From Candidatus Bathyarchaeota archaeon (GTDB taxonomy: Archaea > Thermoproteota > Bathyarchaeia > Bathyarchaeales > Bathycorpusculaceae), in contig PLSP01000053.1 in NCBI GenBank assembly GCA_003165195.1, forward strand, positions 1-45,852: a DNA stretch of 45,852 nucleotides, in the 5' to 3' direction. A program made the translations under genes and the position numbers. Below, piece by piece: positions 1-43,149 of this stretch (positions are counted from its first letter, which is position 1; every line of letters starts with the position of its first letter). The notes beneath the pieces were generated by a model. That model did not search any database and was not told the origin of the DNA. It saw nothing but the letters and a program-made list of their open reading frames with translations.

Positions 1-2136
1 TTGTCAACTTCGAACACAGATTCTAACCAAAAAGAGGCTGAAAACGCCAAAAAACTACTCGACAACCCAGAATATTTCCTCAATAGAGAACTCAGTTGGA
101 TCAGGTTCAACGCCCGTGTTCTAGAGGAGGCACGAGACGTCTGGCACCCCCTTCTGGAAAGGATAAAATTCATAGCCATTTGCGGCAGCAACCTAGACGA
201 GTTTTTCATGACTCGAATTCCGAGACTTATGAAAAAAGTCAAGTCAAAGCCAGATGAAAAATCCATGGATGGGAGAACCGCAATGGAGCAAATCGAAGCT
301 ACGAGAAAAGAAATAATTCCGCTAATTGAGAGTCACGCAAGCTGCTGGAAAGGAGAGCTCATACCAGCGTTAGGAAAACAGGATATTCACATTAGGAACT
401 TTGAGGACTTACCGAATTCAACCAAAGAGAACCTGCGAGAATTCTTTAACAAGTCAATATTACCGTTGGTTAAAATTCCTAAAGAGGGCTTCAGCAACAG
501 TGCGATTGAAAATTTGCATATAACCCTTTTTGTCTCAGGCTTCGCCGAAAAAAATTGGCGTTACTTAATAGACGTTCCCACTGAGAGTTTTGGAAGGCTA
601 ATAAGGATTCCGAGCGGTTACAGCCCAGAAACTGAGAGAGAGATGAAGTATTTAGAACATAATTTTGTGTTCCTAGAAGACCTAATGGCCAGCAATCTGG
701 ACTTGATTTTTCCAAACGAGAAAACGCTGAAAGCTTATCCTTTTAGGCTTACCCGAAATGGCGAAATAGATATTTTAATGGATGAATCGGCAGACTTTGT
801 AAATTCTGTAAAGAAAAGCCTTTCTAATCGTAAAGCCGGTTTGCCAAGCAGGGTTGAATTTGGTAAGGAAACTCCGCTGTCGACTAGAGAGATGATAGCA
901 AACGAACTAGGTTTACCTTACTACTCGGTTTACGAGTTTGACGGACCTTTAGGGCTTGTAGATCTCTGGCAACTGCTTAAAATAAACCGCCCGGACCTAA
1001 AAGACAAAACCTTCCTTCCATCCATTTCGCCTCTGTTAACCACTGACAGCAGCTTGTTTCAAACAATTGCCAAACAAGATATTGTTCTATACCACCCTTA
1101 TGACGGCTTCGAGGTAATAATTGATCTGTTAAGAGAAGCAGCTCAAGACAAAAATGTCCCAGAAATCCGAATAACAATGTATAGGATAGATTCTAGATCG
1201 CCAATTGTTGACGCCTTAATTCATGCAGCCGAAAACGGGAAAAAAGTAACAGCAATCGTGGAACTTAAAGCCAAATTCGACGAAGAAAACAATATTGCCC
1301 TTGTTTCAAAGCTAAGGCAAGGCGGCGTAAATACGGTTTACAATTTTCCTAATTTTAAAATTCACGCCAAATTATGTCTTATTGTGAGAAAGGAAAAAAA
1401 CAAGATAGTCAGATACTCCCATATTGGCTCAGGAAACTACAACGCAGTCACAGCAAAAATCTATGGAGACATAGGCTACTTGACTGCGAACCCCGAGATA
1501 GGAAGCGAACTCGAAGACCTTTTCAACATCCTTACAGAGGGACTTCAAGAAAAAGATTTCAAACATCTGCTTGTAGCACCTAAAAGCCTGAAAAACGAAA
1601 TCCTTAAGCGGATAGACAGAGAAATAAGCTTGCATCAGAAAACAGGGAAAGGATACTTAGCGTTTAAGCTAAACAACCTGGAGGAAACCGAGGTTATTGA
1701 GGCTTTATACCGAGCGTCCATGGCCGGAATTAAAGTTGACTTAAACGTCCGCGGTTTATGCTGCTTGAGGCCGGGCGTTAAAGGGGTAAGCGAAAACATT
1801 TCAGTCATATCGATTGTTGGACGCTTCCTTGAACACGCCCGAATTTACTATTTCAAAGATGATAAAGAAAACGAAGTCATTATAGGAAGCTCAGATATGA
1901 TGTTTAGAAACCTCAACGAAAGAATTGAGGTTCTCCTATCAGTACCTGACCCTCACTTACGTCAAACAATCCTCGAGGATATGTTAAAAATCTCTCTCCG
2001 AGACAACGTCAAAGCAAGAAAACTCTTGCCTGATGGAACCTACGAGAGGGTTATGCCTAAAGAAGGAGAAAAACTGGTGAACTCGCAGGCGTGGCTAATC
2101 CAACACCGGGGAATTTGGAATGAGCGTCCGAGTTAA
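1..2136 (+). CDS. ppk1: Polyphosphate kinase 1 (PPK1)
   Basis: Reversibly transfers the terminal phosphate of ATP onto polyphosphate chains. The 711 residues match the usual PPK1 length. The N-terminal PPK domain opens with NRELSWIRFNARVLEEA near residue 28. The catalytic half shows the phosphohistidine region FKIHAKLCLI (His455) and a second conserved histidine in FLEHARIYYF (His612), followed by SSDMMFRNLNERIEV. It starts with TTG at base 1; the conserved domain begins well inside, so the N-terminus looks complete, but upstream signals lie outside the window. Its 3' end overlaps the start of a decayed CHAD-type gene at 2120, and ppx follows on the same strand, so this looks like an old ppk1-CHAD-ppx operon. 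The family call is firm. The direction of the reaction in the cell cannot be told from sequence. Confidence 0.96.
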   Translation: MSTSNTDSNQKEAENAKKLLDNPEYFLNRELSWIRFNARVLEEARDVWHPLLERIKFIAICGSNLDEFFMTRIPRLMKKVKSKPDEKSMDGRTAMEQIEATRKEIIPLIESHASCWKGELIPALGKQDIHIRNFEDLPNSTKENLREFFNKSILPLVKIPKEGFSNSAIENLHITLFVSGFAEKNWRYLIDVPTESFGRLIRIPSGYSPETEREMKYLEHNFVFLEDLMASNLDLIFPNEKTLKAYPFRLTRNGEIDILMDESADFVNSVKKSLSNRKAGLPSRVEFGKETPLSTREMIANELGLPYYSVYEFDGPLGLVDLWQLLKINRPDLKDKTFLPSISPLLTTDSSLFQTIAKQDIVLYHPYDGFEVIIDLLREAAQDKNVPEIRITMYRIDSRSPIVDALIHAAENGKKVTAIVELKAKFDEENNIALVSKLRQGGVNTVYNFPNFKIHAKLCLIVRKEKNKIVRYSHIGSGNYNAVTAKIYGDIGYLTANPEIGSELEDLFNILTEGLQEKDFKHLLVAPKSLKNEILKRIDREISLHQKTGKGYLAFKLNNLEETEVIEALYRASMAGIKVDLNVRGLCCLRPGVKGVSENISVISIVGRFLEHARIYYFKDDKENEVIIGSSDMMFRNLNERIEVLLSVPDPHLRQTILEDMLKISLRDNVKARKLLPDGTYERVMPKEGEKLVNSQAWLIQHRGIWNERPS

Positions 2137-2358
2137 GAAACAACCATGCAAAATTGACTCAAGTCACTGCAATTTCGGCGCAGAAGCAATTCTCGCTCTT
2201 CTGAAACGTTTCGAGGATAACATCGATAGGCAAAAAAATGTGCTTTGGAATGCACAGAAACAAAATCTCTGTTGGAGGAGCAGGCTTTTAATAGAAAGAA
2301 AGACTTGTTTGAAAAGAGCTTTGCTAAAAAATTGGTGTTGATATGGGAGCAACAGTGA
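2120..2358 (+). pseudogene. Relic of a CHAD...HD-type protein with the middle deleted
   Basis: Two pieces in different frames resemble the two ends of the 850-residue CHAD protein at 5764. Frame-2 codons from ATG 2120 read IDSSHCNFGAEAILALL, matching IDSSYCRFGGEALVKLL at the CHAD start of that protein. Frame-1 codons about 2269-2355 read LLEEQAFNRKKDLFEKSF then AKKLVLIWEQQ and stop (TGA 2356). This matches VLEESAVNKKKDMFEQSF then NKKVMLAWKQ near its C-terminus. Roughly 700 residues in between are missing and the junction near 2230-2260 is out of frame, so no working protein is expected. The start overlaps the end of ppk1 and the tail overlaps the start of ppx, as in a once translationally coupled operon. 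Confidence 0.75.
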
Positions 2359-3914
2359 AAGCTGCTGGGCAAGTAGTGGGTTTTGTAGATATTGGAACAA
2401 ACGCAGTGCGGCTTTTAGTGGTGCGGATAAACCCAAATTTTTCTTACACAGTCATTAGTCAAGAAAAAGAGGTTGTGCGGCTTGGAGAGCAGGAATTTAA
2501 AGATAACATACTTAAACAGCAAGCCATGGAACGCACAATTTTTGTCTGCGGCAAGTTTTCTGGTCTTGCCAAAACCTATGGCGCAAACGAAATAATTGCT
2601 GTTGGAACCTCTGCCATTCGAGAAGCAAGAAACCAAAGTGAGTTTTTAGCTAACCTTAAACGTGAAACGGGATTAAACGTCAATGTTATCTCAGGACAAG
2701 AAGAAGCCCGTTTGATTTACCTTGGGGTCTCAAGCGGGATCGACATGGGAGAAGGAAACGGTATTTTCCTCGATTTAGGAGGAGGCAGCACTGAAATTGC
2801 TATTGGAAACCAAAGTGAATGCCTCTATGTGAATAGCCTCAGAATAGGTGCAATTAGACTAACAAGTCAGTTCATCGGCGAAGATTGGACGGGACCCGTA
2901 GGAGTTAACACCTACAACCAGATTAAGAATTACGCTTGCAGTAAGTTTCACGCGGCTAAAGGAAAAGTTCAACAGTACAATGTCAGGCAGGCATGGGGCT
3001 CATCAGGCACAGTCATTAACCTTGCAGAAATCGCTTCTAAACTTTTCAAGAAAAACAGCAGTGGCGCTACATTGACGCTTTCGAGGAAAAACCTCAAAAA
3101 ACTTGTGCCGATTCTCTGGTCACTTTCCCTCGAAGAAAGAAAAAATGTTCCCGCAATAAATCCTTATAGAGCAGACATAATAGTCGCTGGAGCAGCCATA
3201 ATTGAAGCGGTTATGGACGAGTTCGGTTTAGAACAAATGAACATCAGCCATCGAGAACTGCGCGATGGATTACTTATCGATTACCTATCTAAGTTTAAAG
3301 GCTTCAGGGAACTGCAAAAAGCACCTATGCGGAATAGAAGCGTAGTGCATTTGGGGCGGTCTTGCAACTTTGATGAGAAACACTCTGAAACTGTGACGGC
3401 GTTAGCACTGCAACTCTTTGACAGCGCAAAACAAATTGGGCTACATAATTTAGGGGAAGCAGAAAAGGAGCTCTTGAAATATTCAGCTACGTTACATGAT
3501 GTAGGAGATTTTCTCTCGTTCAACGACCATCACCTCCACTCTCACTACATCATCTGCAACGCTGAATTGTTCGGATTTGACCCCAAAGAAATCCAGATAA
3601 TGGCAAATGTAACGCGTTACCACCGCAAAAAATTGCCATCCAAAAAAGCGCTAAAAGCAAAGGGGTTCGACGAGAAAACCAAAGAAACAATAATTGCTCT
3701 CTCAACGTTTTTGCGTTTTGCTGAAAAACTCGATCGGACCCACTCGGGACTTGTTAACAAAGCAGAATTTATTAAAGAAAGCAAAGATGAAGTTTTGCTG
3801 TTGTTTTATTCTAACTCGGACTGTAGCTTGGAGGAATGGAGCATCGTCCAGAACCGACAAGCCTTCTATGAAGCCTTCGAAAAGCAATTGGACACTAAAT
3901 GCATAGTTGAATAG
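2343..3914 (+). CDS. ppx: Exopolyphosphatase / pppGpp phosphohydrolase with C-terminal HD domain
   Basis: PPX/GppA-family phosphatase of the ASKHA fold that hydrolyses terminal phosphates of polyphosphate (or pppGpp in bacteria). Phosphate loop 1 is GFVDIGTNAVRLLVVRI near residue 13, phosphate loop 2 is FLDLGGGSTEIAIG near 143, and the adenosine-type loop is AWGSSGTVINLAEI near 220. The C-terminal third is an HD-type domain with HSETV, LHDVG (His385-Asp386) and RYHRKKLP, the same arrangement found in the HD region of the 850-residue protein at 5764. At 523 residues it is normal for two-domain PPX. ATG 2343 is used; a GTG at 2355-2357 is a close alternative. It sits downstream of ppk1 and converges on ppk2, which supports polyphosphate turnover. 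Exopolyphosphatase versus GppA activity cannot be separated here. Confidence 0.92.
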   Translation: MGATVKAAGQVVGFVDIGTNAVRLLVVRINPNFSYTVISQEKEVVRLGEQEFKDNILKQQAMERTIFVCGKFSGLAKTYGANEIIAVGTSAIREARNQSEFLANLKRETGLNVNVISGQEEARLIYLGVSSGIDMGEGNGIFLDLGGGSTEIAIGNQSECLYVNSLRIGAIRLTSQFIGEDWTGPVGVNTYNQIKNYACSKFHAAKGKVQQYNVRQAWGSSGTVINLAEIASKLFKKNSSGATLTLSRKNLKKLVPILWSLSLEERKNVPAINPYRADIIVAGAAIIEAVMDEFGLEQMNISHRELRDGLLIDYLSKFKGFRELQKAPMRNRSVVHLGRSCNFDEKHSETVTALALQLFDSAKQIGLHNLGEAEKELLKYSATLHDVGDFLSFNDHHLHSHYIICNAELFGFDPKEIQIMANVTRYHRKKLPSKKALKAKGFDEKTKETIIALSTFLRFAEKLDRTHSGLVNKAEFIKESKDEVLLLFYSNSDCSLEEWSIVQNRQAFYEAFEKQLDTKCIVE

Positions 3915-3937: not shown

Positions 3938-4840
3938 TTACTCTTTTTGCAATTGCACTTTTGCATTCTCCAAATCGTCTAGTTGCTCCTTGCTTAAAGA
4001 AGGAAATTTCAGGTCTAATCCCTTGATTTGCGCTAGGATTATTTCCGATATCAACGCGTGAGCTACCCATTTTTTGTCCGCAGGAATAATGTACCAAGGG
4101 GCCCATTCAGTGCTTGTCGAGTTAAACACATCTTCGTATGCTTCCACATAATTATCCCATTTCGATCGTTCTGAGAGGTCAAATTTTGAAAATTTCCAGT
4201 TCTTACTTGGGTCTTCCAATCGTTTTAGCAAACGCTCTTTCTGCTTTTTCTTTGAAATATTGAGGAAAAATTTTAGCACTATGGTTCCGTTTCGAACCAG
4301 GTGCCTTTCAAACATGTTTATGTCCTGGTATCGCTCATCCCAAAAGTGTTTCCCTTCCAAATCTGAAGGAAGCCTTTGTGTTTCCAATACTTCAGGCCGA
4401 ACTTTAACTATTAATACGTCCTCGTAATATGAGCGATTGAAAATCCCAATGCGCCCCCTTTCGGGAAGAACTCTTGATTGGCGCCAAAGGAAATCGTGGT
4501 TAAGTTCCTCCTCGGTTGGCGTTTTGAAACTGTTAACTTGGCACCCTTGAGGATTAAGACCCGACATTACATGCCGGATAGTTCCATCTTTTCCCGCTGT
4601 ATCCATACCTTGGAGAACAATGAGCATAGAGTAAGTGTCGCTTGCCCAAAAAAGCTGCTGCATCTCAAAAAGTTTCTGTTTGTTTTCCTTAAGAAAAGCT
4701 AACGCCATTTCTTTAACAGCTTTTTTGCCTTCTTTTTCTTCTTCATTTTGGGCCCACTTCGGCACCCAAGCTGAATCATAATCTTTAAGGCTAACTTTTT
4801 TGCCCTGAACTATTTTGAAATCAGCTGCATCAATTGACAT
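3938..4840 (-). CDS. ppk2: Polyphosphate kinase 2 (PPK2) family nucleotide phosphotransferase
   Basis: PPK2 enzymes use polyphosphate to phosphorylate nucleoside mono- or diphosphates. The P-loop is LQGMDTAGKDGT (residues 77-87), followed by VNSFKTPTEEELNHDFLWR and the RIGIFNRSYYEDVLIVKV lid/Walker B region, all typical of single-domain PPK2. The 300-residue length agrees. ATG 4840 starts before a charged N-terminal extension usual for the polyphosphate:AMP/ADP phosphotransferase group. It is convergent with ppx with only 23 bases between them. With PPK1 and PPX beside it, the cell can both make and spend polyphosphate. The subclass (AMP versus ADP acceptor) is not decided. Confidence 0.94.
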   Translation of the reverse strand: MSIDAADFKIVQGKKVSLKDYDSAWVPKWAQNEEEKEGKKAVKEMALAFLKENKQKLFEMQQLFWASDTYSMLIVLQGMDTAGKDGTIRHVMSGLNPQGCQVNSFKTPTEEELNHDFLWRQSRVLPERGRIGIFNRSYYEDVLIVKVRPEVLETQRLPSDLEGKHFWDERYQDINMFERHLVRNGTIVLKFFLNISKKKQKERLLKRLEDPSKNWKFSKFDLSERSKWDNYVEAYEDVFNSTSTEWAPWYIIPADKKWVAHALISEIILAQIKGLDLKFPSLSKEQLDDLENAKVQLQKE

Positions 4841-5046: not shown

Positions 5047-5670
5047 TTAGGAGTTCATTTCGCTGTTTGACAGCTTTTCCTGTTCTGACGGCTGAGTGCT
5101 AGTTTCCTCTTTGATGGGCATTTCCGATTTGACGGGGGTTTCTGCTTTTGCGTTAATTTTTTTTGCGGAAACAATTTTTGCTTTTGGAGTTTGTTTTGGC
5201 TTTACGGTTTTCTTATGAATAGCAGGTTTGGTCTTCAGAGAAGGGGCTTCTTTGCGATCTGACACAGGAGCTTTTTTGGCTTTAACTTCAAGTTTCTTTT
5301 TTGTGTTCCAGATTGGAAGTTGACCATACTCTTCTTTAAATTTGACTAATAGTTCTTCCTGCATAATTCTTGGTTTGAGAGTTGGCATCCAGCCTATTGC
5401 AACCTTTTCTAGATAGCCTTAGTTCAAAAGCATCTCGTTAATTTTTTTAGTGTTTTTTCCACCATACCCTGCAAGATAGCCGCCCAATATTCTTTTGCTC
5501 GGTTTTTTTGTGCGTCCGATATATAGAATATCCGATTCTGGTTTTCCTGTGAGTTCCTGATTAGCAAGTATTATGACAACACCCTCGTCTGGGGGCAAAT
5601 TAGAGGCTGCCAAAGTTTTCATTGGGAACCATACGGAGAAGCCTGCTTCCATTAAAGTTTTAGAATTCAT
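5047..5670 (-). pseudogene. Small YIG-motif (GIY-YIG-like) protein gene with an in-frame TAA
   Basis: Two open stretches on the same strand and frame are separated only by TAA at 5421-5419. The first (codons 1-83, ATG 5670) contains VVIILANQELTGK and ILYIGRTKKPSKRILGGYL, which resembles a GIY-YIG nuclease-like core (YIG followed by arginines). After the stop the frame continues without gap as GYLEKVAIGWMPTLKPRIMQ, then EELLVKFKEEYGQLPIW, which reads as the natural continuation of the domain, then a Lys/Pro-rich tail of about 70 residues ending at 5047. A single base change (for example GAA to TAA) would explain the break. A sequencing error, a recent nonsense mutation, or restart at the internal ATG 5388 are all possible. 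The GIY-YIG assignment is tentative. Confidence 0.6.
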
Positions 5671-5763: not shown

Positions 5764-8316
5764 ATGTTGTTTTCAGTGCAAAGCAATGCGGTTGGGACAA
5801 AAAGAGGAAAAAGAAATTCAATCAATTGGTTGCCGTCAAGCATCGAGGCAAATAAAATGATCCGTGGCTTTGACCCCGACTACGCTGCGATAGATTCCAG
5901 TTATTGCCGTTTCGGTGGTGAGGCACTCGTGAAGCTTCTTCAATTTCTAGAGTCCCAAATGGAAGGTGTTGAAAAGAGTGAGGACATTGAATACGTTCAC
6001 AAGATGCGGGTTGCTTCACGCAGAATAAGAGCTGTTATTCCGCTTTTCAGCGAATGTTTCCCAAAGAAGCGGTATAAAAGATGGTTAAACGAAATCAAAA
6101 AAATAACTCGATTTCTTGGAGCGGCAAGGGATCTTGACGTTCAAATCTTGTTCGTAAAAGAGTACTTAAAGCGGCTTCAACCAAACGAGCCAATGCCGGG
6201 AATGGAAGCATTACTTGAGCGGCATGCGAGCGAGAGAATCAAATTACAATCAAGGGTTTCTAACGAAATACAAGAGCTTAAAAACTCAAGAGTTCTGGAA
6301 CAAATAGCAAGTTACTGCAAACGAATCAAAGAAGCAACAAGCAGCCCTTTTAACCTCTATTCTGTTCGTGAAAAAGCCTTCTGGCAAATATCGTCTAAGC
6401 TAGACGAGTTCATAGCTATGGAAGAATATGTCCATAAAGAAAACGAAATTCTCAAACATCATGAAATGCGCATCAAAGCCAAGTGGCTGCGATACACTTT
6501 GGAAGTTTTTGCGCCGCTTTATCAAGGAGAGCTTTCAGATGATATAGGAATAGTGAAAAACTTTCAAGACACACTTGGAGAACTACATGACTGCGATGTT
6601 TGGGTTAGAAGCATTCCAGGAGTCATAAACGAAATCCAAAAAGAACCTGTTTCATCGCCAGAAAACGAAAGAACCATGTCAGAGGGCAACATAGATCTTT
6701 TAAAGTTCCTCGAATACATCGAACAAAAAAGAAAAAGCTACTACCAACAATTCGTAAGTCTCTGGGATGAAAACAAAAGTAAAGACTCTTTTGAAGAATT
6801 AAGGAATAAAGCAAGCGCAGGTTTCATGGCCGGAGAATATCGAACTAAATCGGAATTGGCTAATCCTTACGTTAAAATCGGATTAATCTCAGATATTCAT
6901 GCCAACCTGAATGCTCTTGAAGCAGTAATAAAAGATGCAGAGAATCGAGGAATAACTGTTTTTCTTAACGCCGGCGATATAATAGGGTTTGGAGCTTTTC
7001 CAAACGAAGTTATTCAGGCACTTTACTCAAAAAATACACTCAGTGTGAAAGGTAACTTCGACCTAGAAGTTTTAGCCAAGAATAAATGGGGGAAAAGCTC
7101 TAAAAAATTCGCCATAGAATACACAAGAAAAGCGTTGACGAAGTCTTACCAAACCTATCTACGTGCTTTGCCTTTGAAACTTGAAATTGAAATTGCCCAA
7201 AAGAAATTTTTATTGATTCACGGAACCCCAGACTCTATTGACGAACACCTTTATCATGACACGCCAGACGAGAGATTTCAAGAAATAGCAAAAAAGGCAG
7301 CCTCGGACATAATTGTTTTTGGTCATTCACATGAACAATTCACAAAAAAAATGGGGGACACTTTATTCATTAATCCAGGCAGCGTCGGAAGGCCTGGGGA
7401 TGGAAACCCTCAAGCCGCCTACGCGGCGATCAATGTTAATCCTTTATCTGTTGAATTGATAAGGGTTAATTATGACGTCGAGACAGCAGCTGATTCTCTG
7501 CGAAGAAGGGGTGCTCCTGAAAGCTATTCCCAAATGCTGCTTCGAGGATTATCGCTTGAAAGCATAGCGGCGGAAGACAAAGCTCGAGAGCAAGACATGG
7601 AGAAAAATTGTGCTGAAATAAATTCAAGTACCCAGAGTATTTCACAAAAATATGGAATGGATATAAAACATTCCGAACAAGTGAGAAAACTTTCTCTAGA
7701 ACTCTTTGACACCCTGCAACATTTGCACAAGCTAGGCAAAAGAGAACGTTGTTGGCTAGAATGTGCCGCCATCTTACATGACATAGGATTAGCAAACGGA
7801 ACCAAGGCACACCAAAAGAATACGCTAAAGCTCATTCTAAATGACACTCAACTGCCGTTCACATCAGTAGAGAGGCAAATTATAGCAAATATTGCCCGAT
7901 ATCATCGAAAAGGGTGCCCAAAAAACAAGGATTACAGCTTCAAGTCTCTTAACTCGGAATTAAAAGCCAAAGTTGGAGCTTTGGCGGGCATTTTGCGTCT
8001 AGCGGACGGTTTGGATTTCTCCCATCAGTCTAACGTTGAAAAAGTAGAAGCCCATGTGGCTTTCGAGTACGTGACTATTGAAGGATTTGTCCGTCTGAAC
8101 CCTGTTCTGGAGGAGAGTGCTGTAAATAAGAAAAAGGACATGTTTGAGCAGTCCTTTAATAAGAAAGTAATGTTGGCATGGAAGCAGATCCAACCCCTTC
8201 AACAACAAACAAGCCAGCAACCTGAACTAACACAGCAGTCTACCCCTGCACCCGACGGAAACGTACCTCCGCCGCAGGAAGCAACGTCAAAACCACAGCA
8301 AACCAGTTCGTCATAA
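5764..8316 (+). CDS. CHAD - calcineurin-like phosphoesterase - HD domain fusion protein
   Basis: Multidomain protein of 850 residues. Residues about 37-340 form a CHAD domain (IDSSYCRFGGEALVKLL, EYVHKMRVASRRIRAVIPLF, RDLDVQ, HHEMRIKAKWLRYTLEVF), a conserved-histidine helical bundle known to bind polyphosphate. Residues about 370-560 are a complete YfcE/MJ0936-type metallophosphoesterase: SDIH (Asp377, His379), GDIIGFG (Asp405), GNFD (Asn431), HGTPDS (His486), FGHSHEQF (His521, His523). Residues about 630-800 are an HD domain related to the C-terminus of PPX: HSEQV (His636), LHDIG (His672-Asp673), RYHRKG (His714). The last 40 residues are Gln/Pro/Ser/Thr-rich and probably disordered. ATG 5764 follows an AGGGAG motif. 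No membrane segment is seen. With ppk1, ppx and ppk2 alongside, the sensible inference is a polyphosphate-tethered phosphohydrolase or regulator; the substrate is unknown. Confidence 0.88.
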   Translation: MLFSVQSNAVGTKRGKRNSINWLPSSIEANKMIRGFDPDYAAIDSSYCRFGGEALVKLLQFLESQMEGVEKSEDIEYVHKMRVASRRIRAVIPLFSECFPKKRYKRWLNEIKKITRFLGAARDLDVQILFVKEYLKRLQPNEPMPGMEALLERHASERIKLQSRVSNEIQELKNSRVLEQIASYCKRIKEATSSPFNLYSVREKAFWQISSKLDEFIAMEEYVHKENEILKHHEMRIKAKWLRYTLEVFAPLYQGELSDDIGIVKNFQDTLGELHDCDVWVRSIPGVINEIQKEPVSSPENERTMSEGNIDLLKFLEYIEQKRKSYYQQFVSLWDENKSKDSFEELRNKASAGFMAGEYRTKSELANPYVKIGLISDIHANLNALEAVIKDAENRGITVFLNAGDIIGFGAFPNEVIQALYSKNTLSVKGNFDLEVLAKNKWGKSSKKFAIEYTRKALTKSYQTYLRALPLKLEIEIAQKKFLLIHGTPDSIDEHLYHDTPDERFQEIAKKAASDIIVFGHSHEQFTKKMGDTLFINPGSVGRPGDGNPQAAYAAINVNPLSVELIRVNYDVETAADSLRRRGAPESYSQMLLRGLSLESIAAEDKAREQDMEKNCAEINSSTQSISQKYGMDIKHSEQVRKLSLELFDTLQHLHKLGKRERCWLECAAILHDIGLANGTKAHQKNTLKLILNDTQLPFTSVERQIIANIARYHRKGCPKNKDYSFKSLNSELKAKVGALAGILRLADGLDFSHQSNVEKVEAHVAFEYVTIEGFVRLNPVLEESAVNKKKDMFEQSFNKKVMLAWKQIQPLQQQTSQQPELTQQSTPAPDGNVPPPQEATSKPQQTSSS

Positions 8317-38676: not shown

Positions 38677-39435
38677 ATGGACACGATTAAGGTAATTGCT
38701 GTTGAGAATCTGCCATTGATCAAGAAGGGAGACAACCTTGGGCAACTCATCGTTGAGGCGGCAGAGAAGCAAAAGACGCCTATTCAAGAAAAAGACATAA
38801 TCGTAGTCACCCATGTTGCGGTATCTAAAGCTGAAGGGAACATAATTGACCTCGACAAAGTGGTTCCCTCAGAAAAAGCCAAAGAAATATCGAGCTTTAC
38901 AGGTAAAGACCCAGCTTTGGTTGAAGTTGTTCTCCAGGAAACCAAAGAAATCGTCAAAATGAACAAAAACACAATAATAACTGAAACCAAAAGCGGTGTA
39001 ATCTGCGCCAATGCCGGAGTAGACCGATCCAACGTTTCAGGCGACAGAAATGTTGTACCGTTACCAAAAAACCCAAATGTCTCCGCACAAAACATAAGAA
39101 AAGAAATAAAACATCTGACCGGAGTCAACGTCGCAGTAATCGTTTCAGACACACATGGTCGACCTCTCCGCATGGGAGAAATAAATGTTGCCGTGGGAGT
39201 GGCAGGAATCAAACCGATTAGGGATAGGCGAGGCGAAAAAGACTTGTTTGGATATGTTCTTAGAATAAAACAAACCGCCATAGCTGATGAACTTTCATCC
39301 GCAGCCGAGCTAGTGATTGGTCAAGCAAACGAGGGAATACCAGCAGCGATTATTCGAGGATACAATTACCAAACAGCTGAAAACACTTCGGCAGTTGATT
39401 TGACTCGCCCAAAAGAAAAAGACATGTTCAGATAA
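38677..39435 (+). CDS. cofE: Coenzyme F420:L-glutamate ligase (CofE)
   Basis: Adds gamma-linked glutamates to F420-0 with GTP. The 252-residue protein matches archaeal CofE: GDNLGQLIVEAAEKQ, DIIVVTHVAVSKAEGNIIDL, VICANAGVDRSNV, VIVSDTHGRPLRMGEINVAV and ELVIGQANEGIPAAIIRGY. There is no FbiB-type C-terminal domain. It starts at ATG 38677 after GAGGAG and is followed at once by the SCP2 gene (stop TAA then ATG). With cofC 500 bases downstream it forms an F420 group. Confidence 0.95.
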   Translation: MDTIKVIAVENLPLIKKGDNLGQLIVEAAEKQKTPIQEKDIIVVTHVAVSKAEGNIIDLDKVVPSEKAKEISSFTGKDPALVEVVLQETKEIVKMNKNTIITETKSGVICANAGVDRSNVSGDRNVVPLPKNPNVSAQNIRKEIKHLTGVNVAVIVSDTHGRPLRMGEINVAVGVAGIKPIRDRRGEKDLFGYVLRIKQTAIADELSSAAELVIGQANEGIPAAIIRGYNYQTAENTSAVDLTRPKEKDMFR

Positions 39436-39798
39436 ATGAAAAATCAAAGAGTCGAAAATATGCAAGTTCAGACGCCGAAACAATTTTTGGAAGAAGTGTT
39501 ACCGCAAAAATTCAGACGTGAAAAAGCGGCAAACATAGATGTTGTTGCACAGTTGAACTTAACTGGCCCAAACGGGGGTAACTGGGTAGTTACCATAAAA
39601 AATCAAACATTAAAGGTGACTGAAGGAACCTATCCATCGCCTACGTTGACTCTGAAAGTTGCTGACAGCGATTTCGTGGATATTGTGAATGGAAAGTCAA
39701 GCGCAACTGAGGCATTTTTCTCGGGAAAAATCCGCATTATAGGCGATTTAGGTTTGGCGTTAAAACTAAAGGACACTGGGCTCTTAAACGGAGAATAG
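39436..39798 (+). CDS. SCP2 sterol-carrier domain protein
   Basis: A 120-residue protein with the SCP2 fold pattern: FLEEVLPQKFRREKAANIDV, VVAQLNLTGPNGGNWVVTIK, PSPTLTLKVADSDFVDIVNG and SATEAFFSGKIRIIGDLGLA with LKLKDTGLL closing the lipid pocket. ATG 39436 abuts the cofE stop; ATG 39460 (MQVQTPKQ) is an alternative. Such domains bind hydrophobic molecules. Its fixed place between cofE and cofC is suggestive of a link with F420 or a lipid-like cofactor, but nothing shows the ligand. Confidence 0.82.
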   Translation: MKNQRVENMQVQTPKQFLEEVLPQKFRREKAANIDVVAQLNLTGPNGGNWVVTIKNQTLKVTEGTYPSPTLTLKVADSDFVDIVNGKSSATEAFFSGKIRIIGDLGLALKLKDTGLLNGE

Positions 39799-39935
39799 CC
39801 GTTTGGGGCTCCGATAAACAAAAACCAAGCCAAACAATTTAAGGCAAAAAATAAAAACGCAACAAGACCTATTCAAATTACCTAACGAAGATGATTACGC
39901 CACCAACGCTTAATCATCAAAGGCTGGTGGAAAGC

Positions 39936-40583
39936 ATGTCAACCTATGCTATAGTACCTGTAAAAAAACTCTCAAAATCGAAAACAAGGCTTTCCACATT
40001 CCTAACTTCTGAGGAACGCACTCTCTTCACCCTAGCCATGCTGGAAGACGTTTTAGGAGCGTTGAAACACTCTAAAGTTAACAAAACCATCATAGTGGGT
40101 GCTAACTCAGAGGTTGAATCATTTGCCAAAAATTTTGGGATGATGTTTCTAAGGGAACAGCAAGAAGGCTTAAACCCAGCACTCAACCAAACGACTAAAT
40201 GGTGCATCCAAAACGGCGCGGAACAAGTTCTGATCTTGCCCACAGATGTCCCAGTTATAACACCAAAAGACATAGATCAACTCATCAAATTAGCATCCAA
40301 AAATTCCATAGTCATTTCTCCCTCAAAAAATGGGGGAACCAACGCCCTGTTGCAAACACCACCTGAAATTATAGTCCCCTCTTTTGGAAACGATAGCTTC
40401 AACAGACACACTGAAAAAGCAGCAGCAAAACATGTTAAAACAAAAGTCTATGTCTCTTCCCGCATCATTTTAGATATCGACTCTGGAAAAGATTTGTCTA
40501 TACTCCTCAAGGCTGGAAAACAAACGGGTTCATACCGCTTCCTCACAAAAAGCACATGGGGCAAAGCCCACAATTTAAGCTAA
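39936..40583 (+). CDS. cofC: 2-phospho-L-lactate guanylyltransferase (CofC)
   Basis: Activates phospholactate (or PEP) with GTP for F420 synthesis. From ATG 39936 (GGTGGA upstream) it is 215 residues: STYAIVPVKKLSKSKTRLST is the nucleotide-binding N-terminus, with ILPTDVPVITPKDIDQLI and SPSKNGGTNALLQTPP, and FGNDSFNRHTEKA later, all as in archaeal CofC. An earlier ATG 39891 would add 15 residues not found in the family. It ends seven bases before the stop of the convergent Cys-cluster gene. Confidence 0.9.
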   Translation: MSTYAIVPVKKLSKSKTRLSTFLTSEERTLFTLAMLEDVLGALKHSKVNKTIIVGANSEVESFAKNFGMMFLREQQEGLNPALNQTTKWCIQNGAEQVLILPTDVPVITPKDIDQLIKLASKNSIVISPSKNGGTNALLQTPPEIIVPSFGNDSFNRHTEKAAAKHVKTKVYVSSRIILDIDSGKDLSILLKAGKQTGSYRFLTKSTWGKAHNLS

Positions 40584-40590
40584 CAAACGG

Positions 40591-41136
40591 TTAAGTCAAA
40601 CCCATTTTCTTTGCAACTTCAAGGGGCAAGTCGTCATCGCCAATTTTAAAGGTCGCCGGTTCATCAATTTTTACAATAGCCCTCAAATCGTCTGCATCAA
40701 GCTCGCAGATAAGTCGAGTTAACTCTTTCTTAGCAACCTCTAAATGCGCCGACAAAGCATCGTTATCCCTAAAGAGCACACCAGCGTAAGCGCAGATTCC
40801 CTCTTTTTTAAGAAACCACTCAACCTTCTTAGTCCTAAAGTTAATGTCAAACGTTACAGGCCCAGCCCGGCATGTCTCAGGCTTCACAGCATGCACTGAG
40901 CACTTTCCCGTTTTCTTGTCAAAAAGGGTACATAAAAAGTCCTCATCAAACGCGGGGTAGCTGTACTTTTCCTTGACAAAAGGCTCTTTGGAGTCAATTT
41001 TTCGTGAGTTTAGGTATTTTTTCAGGATTTTTTTCCTGCGCTTAGAAAGGGGTGGTCTTGCATCCCTACAGCAGACAGAGTTGCATTGGGAACAAACATC
41101 AAACGAGTAAGTAACGCCTTTGTTGTCTTCTGACAT
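40591..41136 (-). CDS. YkgJ-type cysteine-cluster protein
   Basis: A 181-residue protein with the CxxC...CC pattern of YkgJ-like metal/Fe-S proteins: CSQCNSVCCRDA (residues 16-27), FLCTLFDKKTGKCSVHAVKP, ETCRAGPVTF and EGICAYAGVLF. The eight or so cysteines probably bind zinc or an iron-sulfur cluster. ATG 41136 lies 17 bases after the end of the GCS2-like gene, on the same strand, so they likely share a transcript. Known relatives have no settled function. Confidence 0.75.
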   Translation of the reverse strand: MSEDNKGVTYSFDVCSQCNSVCCRDARPPLSKRRKKILKKYLNSRKIDSKEPFVKEKYSYPAFDEDFLCTLFDKKTGKCSVHAVKPETCRAGPVTFDINFRTKKVEWFLKKEGICAYAGVLFRDNDALSAHLEVAKKELTRLICELDADDLRAIVKIDEPATFKIGDDDLPLEVAKKMGLT

Positions 41137-41153
41137 TTTGGCTGCACCGTTTT

Positions 41154-42293
41154 TCAGAGGTAGGGTTCATTATTTGATAGGCACTTAATAAGCGTTGAAT
41201 AAACACTTAAGATTGCTTCAGGGAAATCTGTTTTGTCAGCGCGCCGCTGCACTTTTTCGCGGATGAGATTTGAGAGGCTTCCTTCTTCGATACGCTTTTT
41301 AATGAGCCACAGGTAGCTTTTTTCTTCAGCGTCCGCATGCTTCAAAGCTAAATCAAGGTAGTTTTGGCACACCTGTCTTGCAGTTTTGCCGGCTGGATGC
41401 ATGACCTTAGCATTTAAACCGTCCTTAACAATGTTGTTGAAGTCTCTGACAAGCAACTCATGTGGCAAAAGCTCAGCGTCAGAAGCAATCAACCCTCTGA
41501 GGGCTGCACGTATGAAACAGCTCAATGCCACATCAGATTTGACGCATTCTTGTTCATCCATCAGGCGCACTTCAAGCGCGCATCTGTCAAAACGGAAAAT
41601 TATTCCTCGTGAATTGACCCACTCTCGATCAAGCAGCACATCGCCCGCACCAGCGGCTTCCAAGTCGCGTGAATAACGACCGATGACGTCGTGCTTGTAT
41701 TGTCCCAGCGAATAGGTGTATTGGGGGATGACTTTGCCTGTGACAGAGGAAATTTCCTTCTGGTTTACCTTGTAGAACTGCAGGCGATTGTCCATGTTAG
41801 GTCCGTTTTTTGCCTCGTAGATGGGTGAGGAAGCGGCGATTGCGGGCAGATAGGTGCATAGGTTTGCAAGTTGGTTGTGGATTTGAATGGCGTCTGGTTC
41901 TTTTTGGTAAGGGAGGTTTAGGTGGAAACTTTGGATGTTTAGCCAGCCATGTTGGTTGAGGTTGAAGATTTTGCCGTACTCCTCGTAAATGCGTTTGTGA
42001 TGGTGTGGCCAGATCCCTGTGTCTTTGAGCTTAAGTAGCGGATGCATGCCTGTGCCTAATAGTTGGGCGCCATGTTTCTGCACGATACTATTTAGCGTCT
42101 GCACTGCATTCTGCATGGTTTCCTCAAACTCTGCAGGCGACTTAAAAGGGCGATTAGCTTTCACTTCCATTACGTGTAACTGCATTTCCTTTCCAAAGGT
42201 GAAGGAGGGCAACTCTACGAAGTTTATGGTTTTTCCGCAGTATGCTTTGATGATTTTGTCACTGATGGGCAATACTTTTAGTTCTTTGTCCAC
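41154..42293 (-). CDS. GCS2-family carboxylate-amine (glutamate) ligase
   Basis: Relative of the COG2170 glutamate-cysteine ligase group, joining a carboxylate to an amine with ATP. The frame from GTG 42293 gives 379 residues with HPLLKLKDTGIWPHHHKRIY, GWLNIQSFHLNLPY, PAIAASSPIYEAKNGP and FRFDRCALEVRLMDEQEC. The essential first strand with the acidic metal ligands (EVFGPEHEYSLVD, a GxExE-type motif) lies upstream of that GTG in the same frame, in codons reaching to about 42335, but no ATG, GTG or TTG is found between it and the TAA at 42362. The real start is therefore probably near 42335 with a non-standard codon. Divergent from the RLAN/ATP-grasp pair, with which it may work. Confidence 0.78.
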   Translation of the reverse strand: MDKELKVLPISDKIIKAYCGKTINFVELPSFTFGKEMQLHVMEVKANRPFKSPAEFEETMQNAVQTLNSIVQKHGAQLLGTGMHPLLKLKDTGIWPHHHKRIYEEYGKIFNLNQHGWLNIQSFHLNLPYQKEPDAIQIHNQLANLCTYLPAIAASSPIYEAKNGPNMDNRLQFYKVNQKEISSVTGKVIPQYTYSLGQYKHDVIGRYSRDLEAAGAGDVLLDREWVNSRGIIFRFDRCALEVRLMDEQECVKSDVALSCFIRAALRGLIASDAELLPHELLVRDFNNIVKDGLNAKVMHPAGKTARQVCQNYLDLALKHADAEEKSYLWLIKKRIEEGSLSNLIREKVQRRADKTDFPEAILSVYSTLIKCLSNNEPYL

Positions 42294-42414
42294 AAGTGAA
42301 TATTCGTGTTCGGGCCCAAATACTTCAAGCGGTTTGTACGTGCGGGTATACCTCTTTTTTTAAGCCTTTATTTTTTAATGCGAATATGTCATAGTTAATC
42401 TTAAATATAACTAC

Positions 42415-43149
42415 GTGAATATCGGGTTTCAGTTAACCTGGTGTTTCATGACCGTGTTGGTCGTCTCCAACTTCGACCTAACCCCTAATCTTCAAGTAAT
42501 GAAGCCCTCAACGTTTCTAGAGTCCACAATCAAAGAAGCAACACTCAACCTAAACAACGAATACCGCTACATGAAAGCGGGCTATTACGTTTCTATGCAC
42601 GCAGAGGTGCTGGGTAACCACGTTATCCCCTCTTGCGAAGATATCATCGACTCCAGCAGAACCCCTATTCTTCTTCTTAGAGCAGCCAGAGCAGGCGTTC
42701 CCACTCTACCGTTCCTTGTCACAGATTCAGTTAAAAAAATAACCGATGAACTTGGGTTTCCAGTGATTCTTTTCGCGGTAAATCCCTTCATATACGACGG
42801 CTTCAAAGTCGCCAACAACAAAAGTGCGCTGTACCGAGCCATGAAAAGCTTAGGCATGAACTACAAATTCGCCGTGTGTGCACAGCCCCTCAAAGGCGAA
42901 CTCTTGACGGTTAAAAGCTTCTTTGGCAAAACCCAAAATCTAGACGCCCAGGTCCAAGAAATCGCAGACCATGTTTATACAATCTTCAAAATCCCGATTT
43001 GCAAATTACACATACAAAAATCCGTCGATAAAGCTTATTTGTGTGGACTGCAACCCGTAGAGAGAGAGGAGCTTTCCGAGAAAGACTTGCAAAAAATATC
43101 CAAAGAGGTCATGCTCATTTCTGAGCAGGGTGAACCCTTCGGTGTCTAA
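42415..43149 (+). CDS. RLAN-type (RimK-like ATP-grasp N-terminal) domain protein
   Basis: A 244-residue protein matching the RLAN domain normally fused to a RimK-like ATP-grasp enzyme: VLVVSNFDLTPNLQVMKPST, then ATLNLNNEYRYMKAGYYVSM and HAEVLGNHVIPSCEDIID. Here it ends before the ATP-grasp part, which is a separate gene overlapping its 3' end by 20 bases. The start is uncertain: ATG 42448 (MTVLVVSNF) looks better than the upstream codon at 42415. No catalytic motif is known for the domain; in fused relatives it likely presents the substrate. Coupled translation with the ligase is expected. Confidence 0.72.
   Translation: MNIGFQLTWCFMTVLVVSNFDLTPNLQVMKPSTFLESTIKEATLNLNNEYRYMKAGYYVSMHAEVLGNHVIPSCEDIIDSSRTPILLLRAARAGVPTLPFLVTDSVKKITDELGFPVILFAVNPFIYDGFKVANNKSALYRAMKSLGMNYKFAVCAQPLKGELLTVKSFFGKTQNLDAQVQEIADHVYTIFKIPICKLHIQKSVDKAYLCGLQPVEREELSEKDLQKISKEVMLISEQGEPFGV

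Follow-up and report, generated by a model that had tools for sequence, protein, structure and literature searches.

In a stretch of 45,852 nucleotides (nt) from a Candidatus Bathyarchaeota archaeon (assembly GCA_003165195.1, contig PLSP01000053.1, positions 1 to 45,852; referred to as a whole as the window), the plus-strand open reading frame (ORF) at 5764-8316 encodes 850 residues in which Pfam profiles recognise a CHAD domain, a calcineurin-type phosphoesterase and the C-terminal half of an exopolyphosphatase (PPX), consisting of its HD domain and last module. We propose that this fusion is a phosphohydrolase tethered to polyphosphate (polyP) and acting in the polyP cycle of uncultured, Bathycorpusculum-type Bathyarchaeia, its middle domain most likely cutting the held chain itself, a reading to which we give slightly less than even odds (about 0.45).

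The three domains all score above their Pfam gathering thresholds: CHAD (PF05235) at residues 57-281 (5932-6606; E 3.5e-44, 151.9 bits against a gathering score of 25.6), Metallophos_2 (PF12850) at residues 371-557 (6874-7434; E 6.5e-26), and Ppx-GppA_III (PF21447), a PPX domain III-type HD domain, at residues 621-764 (7624-8055; E 1.3e-20, 74.4 bits against 27.3), with a general HD match at residues 634-751 (E 5.4e-7, also over its gathering score). NCBIfam assigns the middle part to its YfcE subfamily of phosphodiesterases, at 70.3 bits over a cut-off of 56.25. A preliminary description, made from the sequence alone, had named the same three modules, and the profile searches found each of them. 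The 16 full-length fusion proteins scanned, the window's included, all match these domains at E <= 0.01, and with 19 genomes carrying the fusion, an explanation by chance or misjoined domains was rejected.

The C-terminal part comprises more than an HD domain. Residues 619-802 align with the adjacent PPX at 33% identity, so that the resemblance to the PPX C-terminal domain reported earlier holds and extends into a last alpha/beta module (residues 765-808, 8056-8187), the counterpart of the PPX C-terminal end, which was recognised from this match, the alignment and the structure model. The catalytic ASKHA half (PF02541), present in the neighbouring ppx, was not matched in the fusion at E <= 0.1. 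The fusion is not classed as a PPX, and the metallophosphoesterase occupies the place of the ASKHA half. Nor is it a CYTH-CHAD protein of the ygiF type, CYTH being absent from the families matched by the 16 proteins at E <= 0.01.

The window protein probably, though not certainly, starts at Met32 (ATG 5857), giving 819 residues, rather than at ATG 5764: in a 16-protein alignment the Met32 column is the start of 14 of the 15 aligned relatives. The sequence GAGG lies 8 nt upstream of ATG 5857, but AAGGGAG likewise lies 14 nt upstream of ATG 5764; residues 1-42 are modelled with a predicted local distance difference test score (pLDDT) below 50. The last 40 residues form a Gln/Pro-rich tail, a feature of the three duplicate-type copies described below and of no other protein in the 16-protein alignment.

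Structure prediction with AlphaFold2, based on an alignment of eight sequences, gave a model whose Foldseek matches in the PDB point to phosphoesterase, CHAD and PPX/GppA structures alike. For the phosphoesterase, 3qfm (SapH) and 1nnw were tied at the top, followed by 2gju and 3rqz (SapH / PH1004 type), and a PDB sequence search returned 3rqz first (E 6.9e-18) and then 3qfm (E 1.2e-13). The C. tepidum CHAD protein was retrieved with polyP (6qva, 204 columns) and without it (6qv7), and the PPX/GppA structures 8jgx, 1u6z (E. coli PPX, 219 columns) and 6pc0 over 186-219 columns. Since the Foldseek output carried no query ranges, the assignment of the PPX/GppA group to the HD domain and the following module was drawn from the sequence match of residues 619-802 to the adjacent PPX and from the alignment; some long PPX alignments with a root-mean-square deviation above 10 were set aside. 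The relative placement of the domains in the model is not trustworthy and was not used.

The residues expected of two metal centres and a polyP binder are largely conserved. All seven phosphoesterase ligands (D377, H379, D405, N431, H486, H521 and H523) are complete in 19 of 21 rows of the fusion alignment and the HD ligands (H636, H672, D673 and H714, to which the alignment added H683, D748 and D751) in 20 of 21; the ligands lie at the residue numbers first proposed for them. The same HD set, with Glu for D748, is kept in 19/19 neighbouring PPX proteins. The idea of two hydrolase centres calls for caution, the HD module being a PPX C-terminal half that may act as a second clamp. Excerpts of PMC6537752 state that mutation of H253, R256, R260, R296, R418 or Y419 in the C. 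tepidum CHAD protein leads to loss of polyP affinity. In the alignment with 6qv7 these residues correspond to H79, R82, R86, R122, R243 and Y244 of the fusion. The first four are invariant in the 19 rows covering those positions, and R243 and Y244 are invariant, together with K265, the equivalent of C. tepidum K441, in the 20 rows that cover theirs.

Among 18 full-length copies, mean pairwise identity is highest in the C-terminal extension of the phosphoesterase (63%), followed by the HD domain (56%), the phosphoesterase itself (55%), CHAD (50%) and the linker (30%). Across the seven operonic pairs that are closest to each other, the ratio of nonsynonymous to synonymous substitution rates (dN/dS) is about 0.11-0.22 in each domain, and in the closest pair about 0.15 for CHAD, 0.12 for the phosphoesterase and 0.19 for HD, values that are rough because dS is near 1. 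The phosphoesterase has the lowest dN in six of the seven pairs; the exception involves genome G023, whose phosphoesterase carries D377N.

A profile search of 90 genomes of the window's Bathyarchaeia family located the fusion in 19 of them, namely 15 of the 32 in the window's genus (the window's genome included) and four of the seven in a second genus, g24. PPK1 (polyphosphate kinase 1, PF02503) occurs in 21 of the 90: in all 19 with the fusion and in two of the 71 without it (G019 and G020), so that the architecture was never found without PPK1 in this family. A PPX-type HD match at E < 1e-29 picked out the same 19 genomes and none of the other 71. Fisher's test (19/0 against 2/69) gives 1.5e-17, a figure that is no independent evidence, since the counts ignore kinship among related genomes. 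A second PPK1 type was noted in G020 (34% identical to the window's) and, as a second copy, in G014 (35%; loci L088 and L089), in neither case adjacent to a fusion gene in the stretches fetched.

The architecture survey covered the phylum Thermoproteota. Among 398 genomes drawn across it, the long fusion was present in 11, all of the window's family; elsewhere the phosphoesterase and the HD module gave single-domain matches, in ORFs of 225-336 and 186-352 residues respectively, and CHAD matched in ORFs of 235-315 residues (below-cut-off matches excluded). A contig scan with the single protein as query found five loci, of which three bear the title Candidatus Bathyarchaeota and two that of Candidatus Bathycorpusculum. 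The CHAD profile also matched Methanosarcina acetivorans and five bacteria among the control genomes. Plasmid-borne relatives were considered and rejected, as 175 plasmid records match parts of the query and none covers 80% of it in one place. An anti-phage role was likewise rejected, PADLOC assigning the window protein to no family; one orthologue gave a single 20-bit match (PDC-S10, E 7.9e-5). A recent local fusion with the HD domain of the adjacent ppx was also discarded: the tree separates the 21 fusion HD domains (98/96) from the 19 PPX HD domains (100/99), each set as one group; according to a program warning, long branches meet in this tree. Judged from it, the domains seem to have been joined before the two genera diverged.

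The gene order ppk1-fusion-ppx holds in 18 of the 19 fusion genomes. In 16 it lies on one contig, and in two (G024 and G405) it was reconstructed across contig ends that cut the fusion gene and leave ppk1 and ppx on separate contigs. The fusion gene overlaps ppx in 17 of 18 loci, by 16 nt in 14 and by 10, 10 and 34 nt in the others, and is separated from it by 8 nt in G023; ppk1 overlaps the fusion gene in 16/16, by 17-137 nt when the longest ORFs are taken and by 17 nt in five. These overlaps suggest that the fusion is co-translated with PPK1 and PPX. The fusion gene of G025 is broken into two ORFs, of 113 and 654 codons, whose frames differ. Neighbouring genes were counted in 18 loci (G405 left out), with CYTH, GIY-YIG and pst/phoU queries taken from the G436 locus: pstSCAB-phoU lies in the fetched stretch of 12 loci, a GIY-YIG-like protein near the fusion in 17, a neighbouring ppk2 in 10 and a CYTH protein, as a separate nearby gene, in nine. 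The fusion locus is a phosphate-storage and phosphate-uptake island.

The window departs from this arrangement. Its ppk1 and ppx lie 206 bases apart, with remnants of a fusion gene in and around the gap: an N-terminal remnant of 36 codons at 2120-2227 (plus strand; E 5.7e-5), whose ATG lies within the end of ppk1, an overlap of 17 nt with its stop, and a C-terminal remnant in another frame at 2224-2358 (plus strand; E 4.4e-10, model positions 734-778), whose stop overlaps the ppx ATG by 16 nt. Because two terminal remnants with the overlaps of intact operons (17 nt in 5/16, 16 nt in 14/18) lie between ppk1 and ppx, an internal deletion of about 2.1 kb, a size taken from the model length, evidently removed the operonic copy and left a scar of 0.2 kb. 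The deletion could be an assembly error, but the preserved junctions argue for a real former copy. The gene at 5764-8316 is a diverged duplicate relocated beyond ppk2, and it is the only full fusion copy found in the window's genome, with all ligands kept. The preliminary description had placed it in a polyP gene cluster; the context stands, and the usual place of the gene is between ppk1 and ppx. The possibility that the fusion is peculiar to the window was rejected, the window holding an atypical copy of a gene carried by 19 genomes.

Two further genomes, G017 and G022, carry such a duplicate in addition to an operonic copy whose ligands are all present. The three duplicates cluster together with 100/99 support, in the HD tree as well as in the phosphoesterase tree. 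The G017 duplicate keeps all ligands. The G022 duplicate (L033:10016-12445) has lost H379, N431, H486, H521 and H523, and its HD motif has become HE; the CHAD positions and an open frame of 810 residues are kept, and it may be a natural binding-only variant, with polyP binding predicted. In a fourth genome, G004 (L029, G004:C77), a C-terminal fusion scar (E 8.6e-6) precedes a ppx that is broken off after the first HD histidine, as read by eye, and a PF02503 search of the genome gave no PPK1 match; its polyP module seems, from these remains, to have decayed as a whole.

In the mechanism that we propose, a polyP chain would be held at the N-terminus of the protein by CHAD and at its opposite end by the PPX-type HD/C-terminal module. 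The middle domain, with its dinuclear metal centre, would most likely hydrolyse phosphoanhydride bonds of that chain, cutting it internally or taking short pieces from its ends. Presumably co-translated with PPK1, which makes the polymer, and PPX, which trims its ends, the enzyme would provide PPX with new ends or keep chains from growing too long. Action on the held polymer is the most economical reading because two modules with polyP affinity elsewhere flank a metal hydrolase, and the gene stands between those of maker and trimmer. The PPX C-terminal half is linked to polyP binding and processivity in the titles of 1u6z and of Alvarado 2006; in excerpts of PMC6537752, an engineered polyP-binding domain of E. 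coli PPX serves as a polyP probe, and CHAD raises the activity of ygiF. Yeast endopolyphosphatase PPN1 is described, in part of PMC6973038, as a calcineurin-like enzyme that cuts polyP internally. The preliminary description had suggested a polyP-associated phosphatase or nucleotide-signal hydrolase. Association with polyP is strongly supported by the gene context, with PPK1 in 19/19 fusion genomes and the gene order kept in 18/19, and is also supported by CHAD positions that are invariant where PMC6537752, in the same excerpts, places polyP contacts; between phosphatase and nucleotide-signal hydrolase these data do not divide.

Several observations weigh against cleavage of the held chain. 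A PPX is already present beside the fusion. Phosphoesterase ligands are incomplete in two copies, the G022 duplicate and the G023 operonic copy (D377N). The position after the metal-binding N431 is Phe, Tyr or Leu in 21/21 rows and never His (GN[F/Y/L]D in 20, GDYD in the G022 duplicate). The classic metallophosphoesterase motif is GNH(D/E); active enzymes without this His exist, and it is no requirement for the Pfam family. In CHAD, the equivalent of R438 is basic in only three of 20 rows and is Gly in the window; the distal polyP-contact set consists of R438, K441 and R385-K390, of which the alignment mapping covered R438 and K441. In the stretches (5.6-13 kb) fetched for ten stand-alone relatives of the phosphoesterase domain, no ORF was homologous to ppk1, ppx or ppk2 (10/10). 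The structure model is of moderate confidence (mean pLDDT 74.3, predicted template modelling score 0.53). Finally, Foldseek ranks SapH 3qfm, titled an asymmetric diadenosine tetraphosphate (Ap4A) hydrolase and phosphodiesterase, highest for the middle domain, level with the uncharacterised 1nnw.

The last of these leads to the main rival to a polyP substrate, a nucleotide polyphosphate. The fusion would then be a polyP-sensing hydrolase, placed on granules or informed of polyP by CHAD and the PPX-type module, whose phosphoesterase cuts Ap4A, ATP/ADP or another nucleotide and so links the phosphate store with the nucleotide pool; we regard this as clearly less probable than cleavage of the chain, though by no means negligible. 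Besides its place at the top of the Foldseek list, the Ap4A hydrolase SapH recurs in the PDB sequence search, and the PPK2 encoded beside 10 of the 18 loci could in principle connect polyP and nucleotides. The substrate range of this fold family is, however, broad, and the recognised neighbours are polyP and inorganic phosphate genes, no systematic neighbourhood search having been made for nucleotide-signal genes.

It is rather improbable that the protein is chiefly a granule protein (phosin) or a scaffold for PPK1 and PPX, with catalysis secondary. The redundant G022 duplicate, which lost both metal centres and retained CHAD and its long frame, would fit such a role, and CHAD proteins coat granules (Tumlirsch and Jendrossek 2017, as cited in excerpts of PMC6537752); against it, 19 of 21 rows preserve the full phosphoesterase ligand set, the sole full copy found in the window's genome among them, and the phosphoesterase is the domain with the lowest dN in most of the closest operonic pairs. 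Marginally weaker still is a second-messenger hydrolase with two centres for (p)ppGpp or cyclic nucleotides under polyP control, for which the intact HD ligands (20/21 rows), the GppA/PPX structure matches, the nearby CYTH genes (nine of 18 loci; some CYTH proteins make cyclic nucleotides, according to part of PMC8233210) and the link between polyP and cyclic AMP proposed for Acidithiobacillus CYTH-CHAD cyclases in part of PMC6416229 speak, but whose HD set, with Glu for D748, recurs in every neighbouring PPX and gives no sign of a function new to the fusion.

Returning to the tethered phosphohydrolase, each of its parts has known relatives. In CYTH/TTM-CHAD polyphosphatases such as E. coli ygiF, a phosphohydrolase is likewise joined to the CHAD domain that, in the excerpts of PMC6537752, stimulates it; in the fusion, by contrast, the catalytic domain is of the calcineurin type, CHAD is N-terminal, a PPX C-terminal module is added and CYTH remains a separate gene. 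Stand-alone CHAD proteins (C. tepidum, S. solfataricus; phosins) share its fold and core polyP-contact residues, whereas those of the Thermoproteota, with frames of 235-315 residues, are too short for the other two domains. A ppx-like ORF lies within 1.5-kb flanks of 10 of 17 such stand-alone loci, and CHAD next to ppx has already been described for Sulfolobales-type archaea in part of PMC10892726. With PPX/GppA exopolyphosphatases the fusion has in common the homologous HD and last module (residues 619-802), but it lacks the PF02541 half, and its HD domains group separately. The SapH / PH1004-like metallophosphoesterases (3qfm, 1nnw, 2gju, 3rqz) share the catalytic domain and its C-terminal extension, in chains of 246-270 residues without CHAD or HD. 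To our knowledge, the yeast enzymes PPN1 and PPN2 carry neither a CHAD nor an HD module; they are likened to the fusion by description only, PPN1 as calcineurin-like and PPN2 as a metallophosphatase, both cutting polyP in the excerpt of PMC6973038. Among the matches listed in the open-licence literature, no paper deals with CHAD joined to a phosphoesterase of the calcineurin type, and none with a polyP operon in Bathyarchaeia; one CHAD-related match, PMC6416229, has CYTH-CHAD cyclases as its subject in the part seen. All parts of the protein are known; to judge by those matches, what is new is the union of the three in one chain and the gene's constant position between ppk1 and ppx.

The genes around the fusion in the window were identified with Pfam and NCBIfam: ppk1 at 1-2136 (plus strand), beginning at the contig edge; ppx, with its C-terminal HD module, at 2343-3914 (plus strand); and a ppk2-family gene at 3938-4840 (minus strand), which confirms the adjacency of the three noted beforehand. 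A GIY-YIG-like protein with a Lys-rich tail is encoded at 5047-5670 (minus strand). This assignment comes from relatives and lies just below the cut-off; in the window the frame, read by eye, is interrupted by an in-frame TAA at 5419-5421, whose letters were checked, and only 5047-5388 is listed as an ORF. That Lys-rich ORF was considered as a free histone-like gene and rejected, being the C-terminal part of the GIY-YIG-like gene. The tail recalls AlgP, an H1-like spacer of polyP granules in Pseudomonas according to part of PMC9239181. In another locus (L034:14258-19897), the genes downstream of ppk1-fusion-ppx encode a PhoU protein with a MazE/AbrB-like N-terminus and a pstS-like solute-binding protein, followed by pstC, pstA, pstB and phoU; pstC, pstA and pstB were named by eye, and Pfam supports three of the six ORFs. 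Farther along the window, positions 38677-43149 hold genes for an F420 ligase (CofE), a CofC-like protein, a GCS2-type glutamate-cysteine ligase-like protein and a protein with a RimK-like ATP-grasp N-terminal domain, possibly an F420 or peptide ligation cluster.

The breakdown of polyP in archaea is poorly known. A 2026 study of Haloferax volcanii, an archaeon without PPX, found a polyP-degrading activity that depends on Mn2+/Co2+ and comes from an unidentified enzyme, and in part of its list the endopolyphosphatases PPN1 and PPN2 are marked as Eukarya (PMC13318637). The fusion cannot be the H. volcanii enzyme, since the CHAD search of that genome, one of our controls, gave no match; as a conserved metal hydrolase of a ppk1-ppx operon, flanked by two predicted polyP-binding modules, it is a named gene to test for a missing class of activity. 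The G022 duplicate, with its catalytic centres lost and CHAD kept, and the window's deletion scar provide naturally occurring variants in which binding and catalysis come apart. It is conceivable, though still doubtful, that the fusion is the first prokaryotic calcineurin-type endopolyphosphatase, assembled independently of PPN1/PPN2 from a metallophosphoesterase set between CHAD and the PPX processivity module, which are unrelated to each other and would both clamp polyP, and encoded between synthase and exopolyphosphatase. If this is true, the making, cutting and trimming of polyP would be co-translated in archaea.

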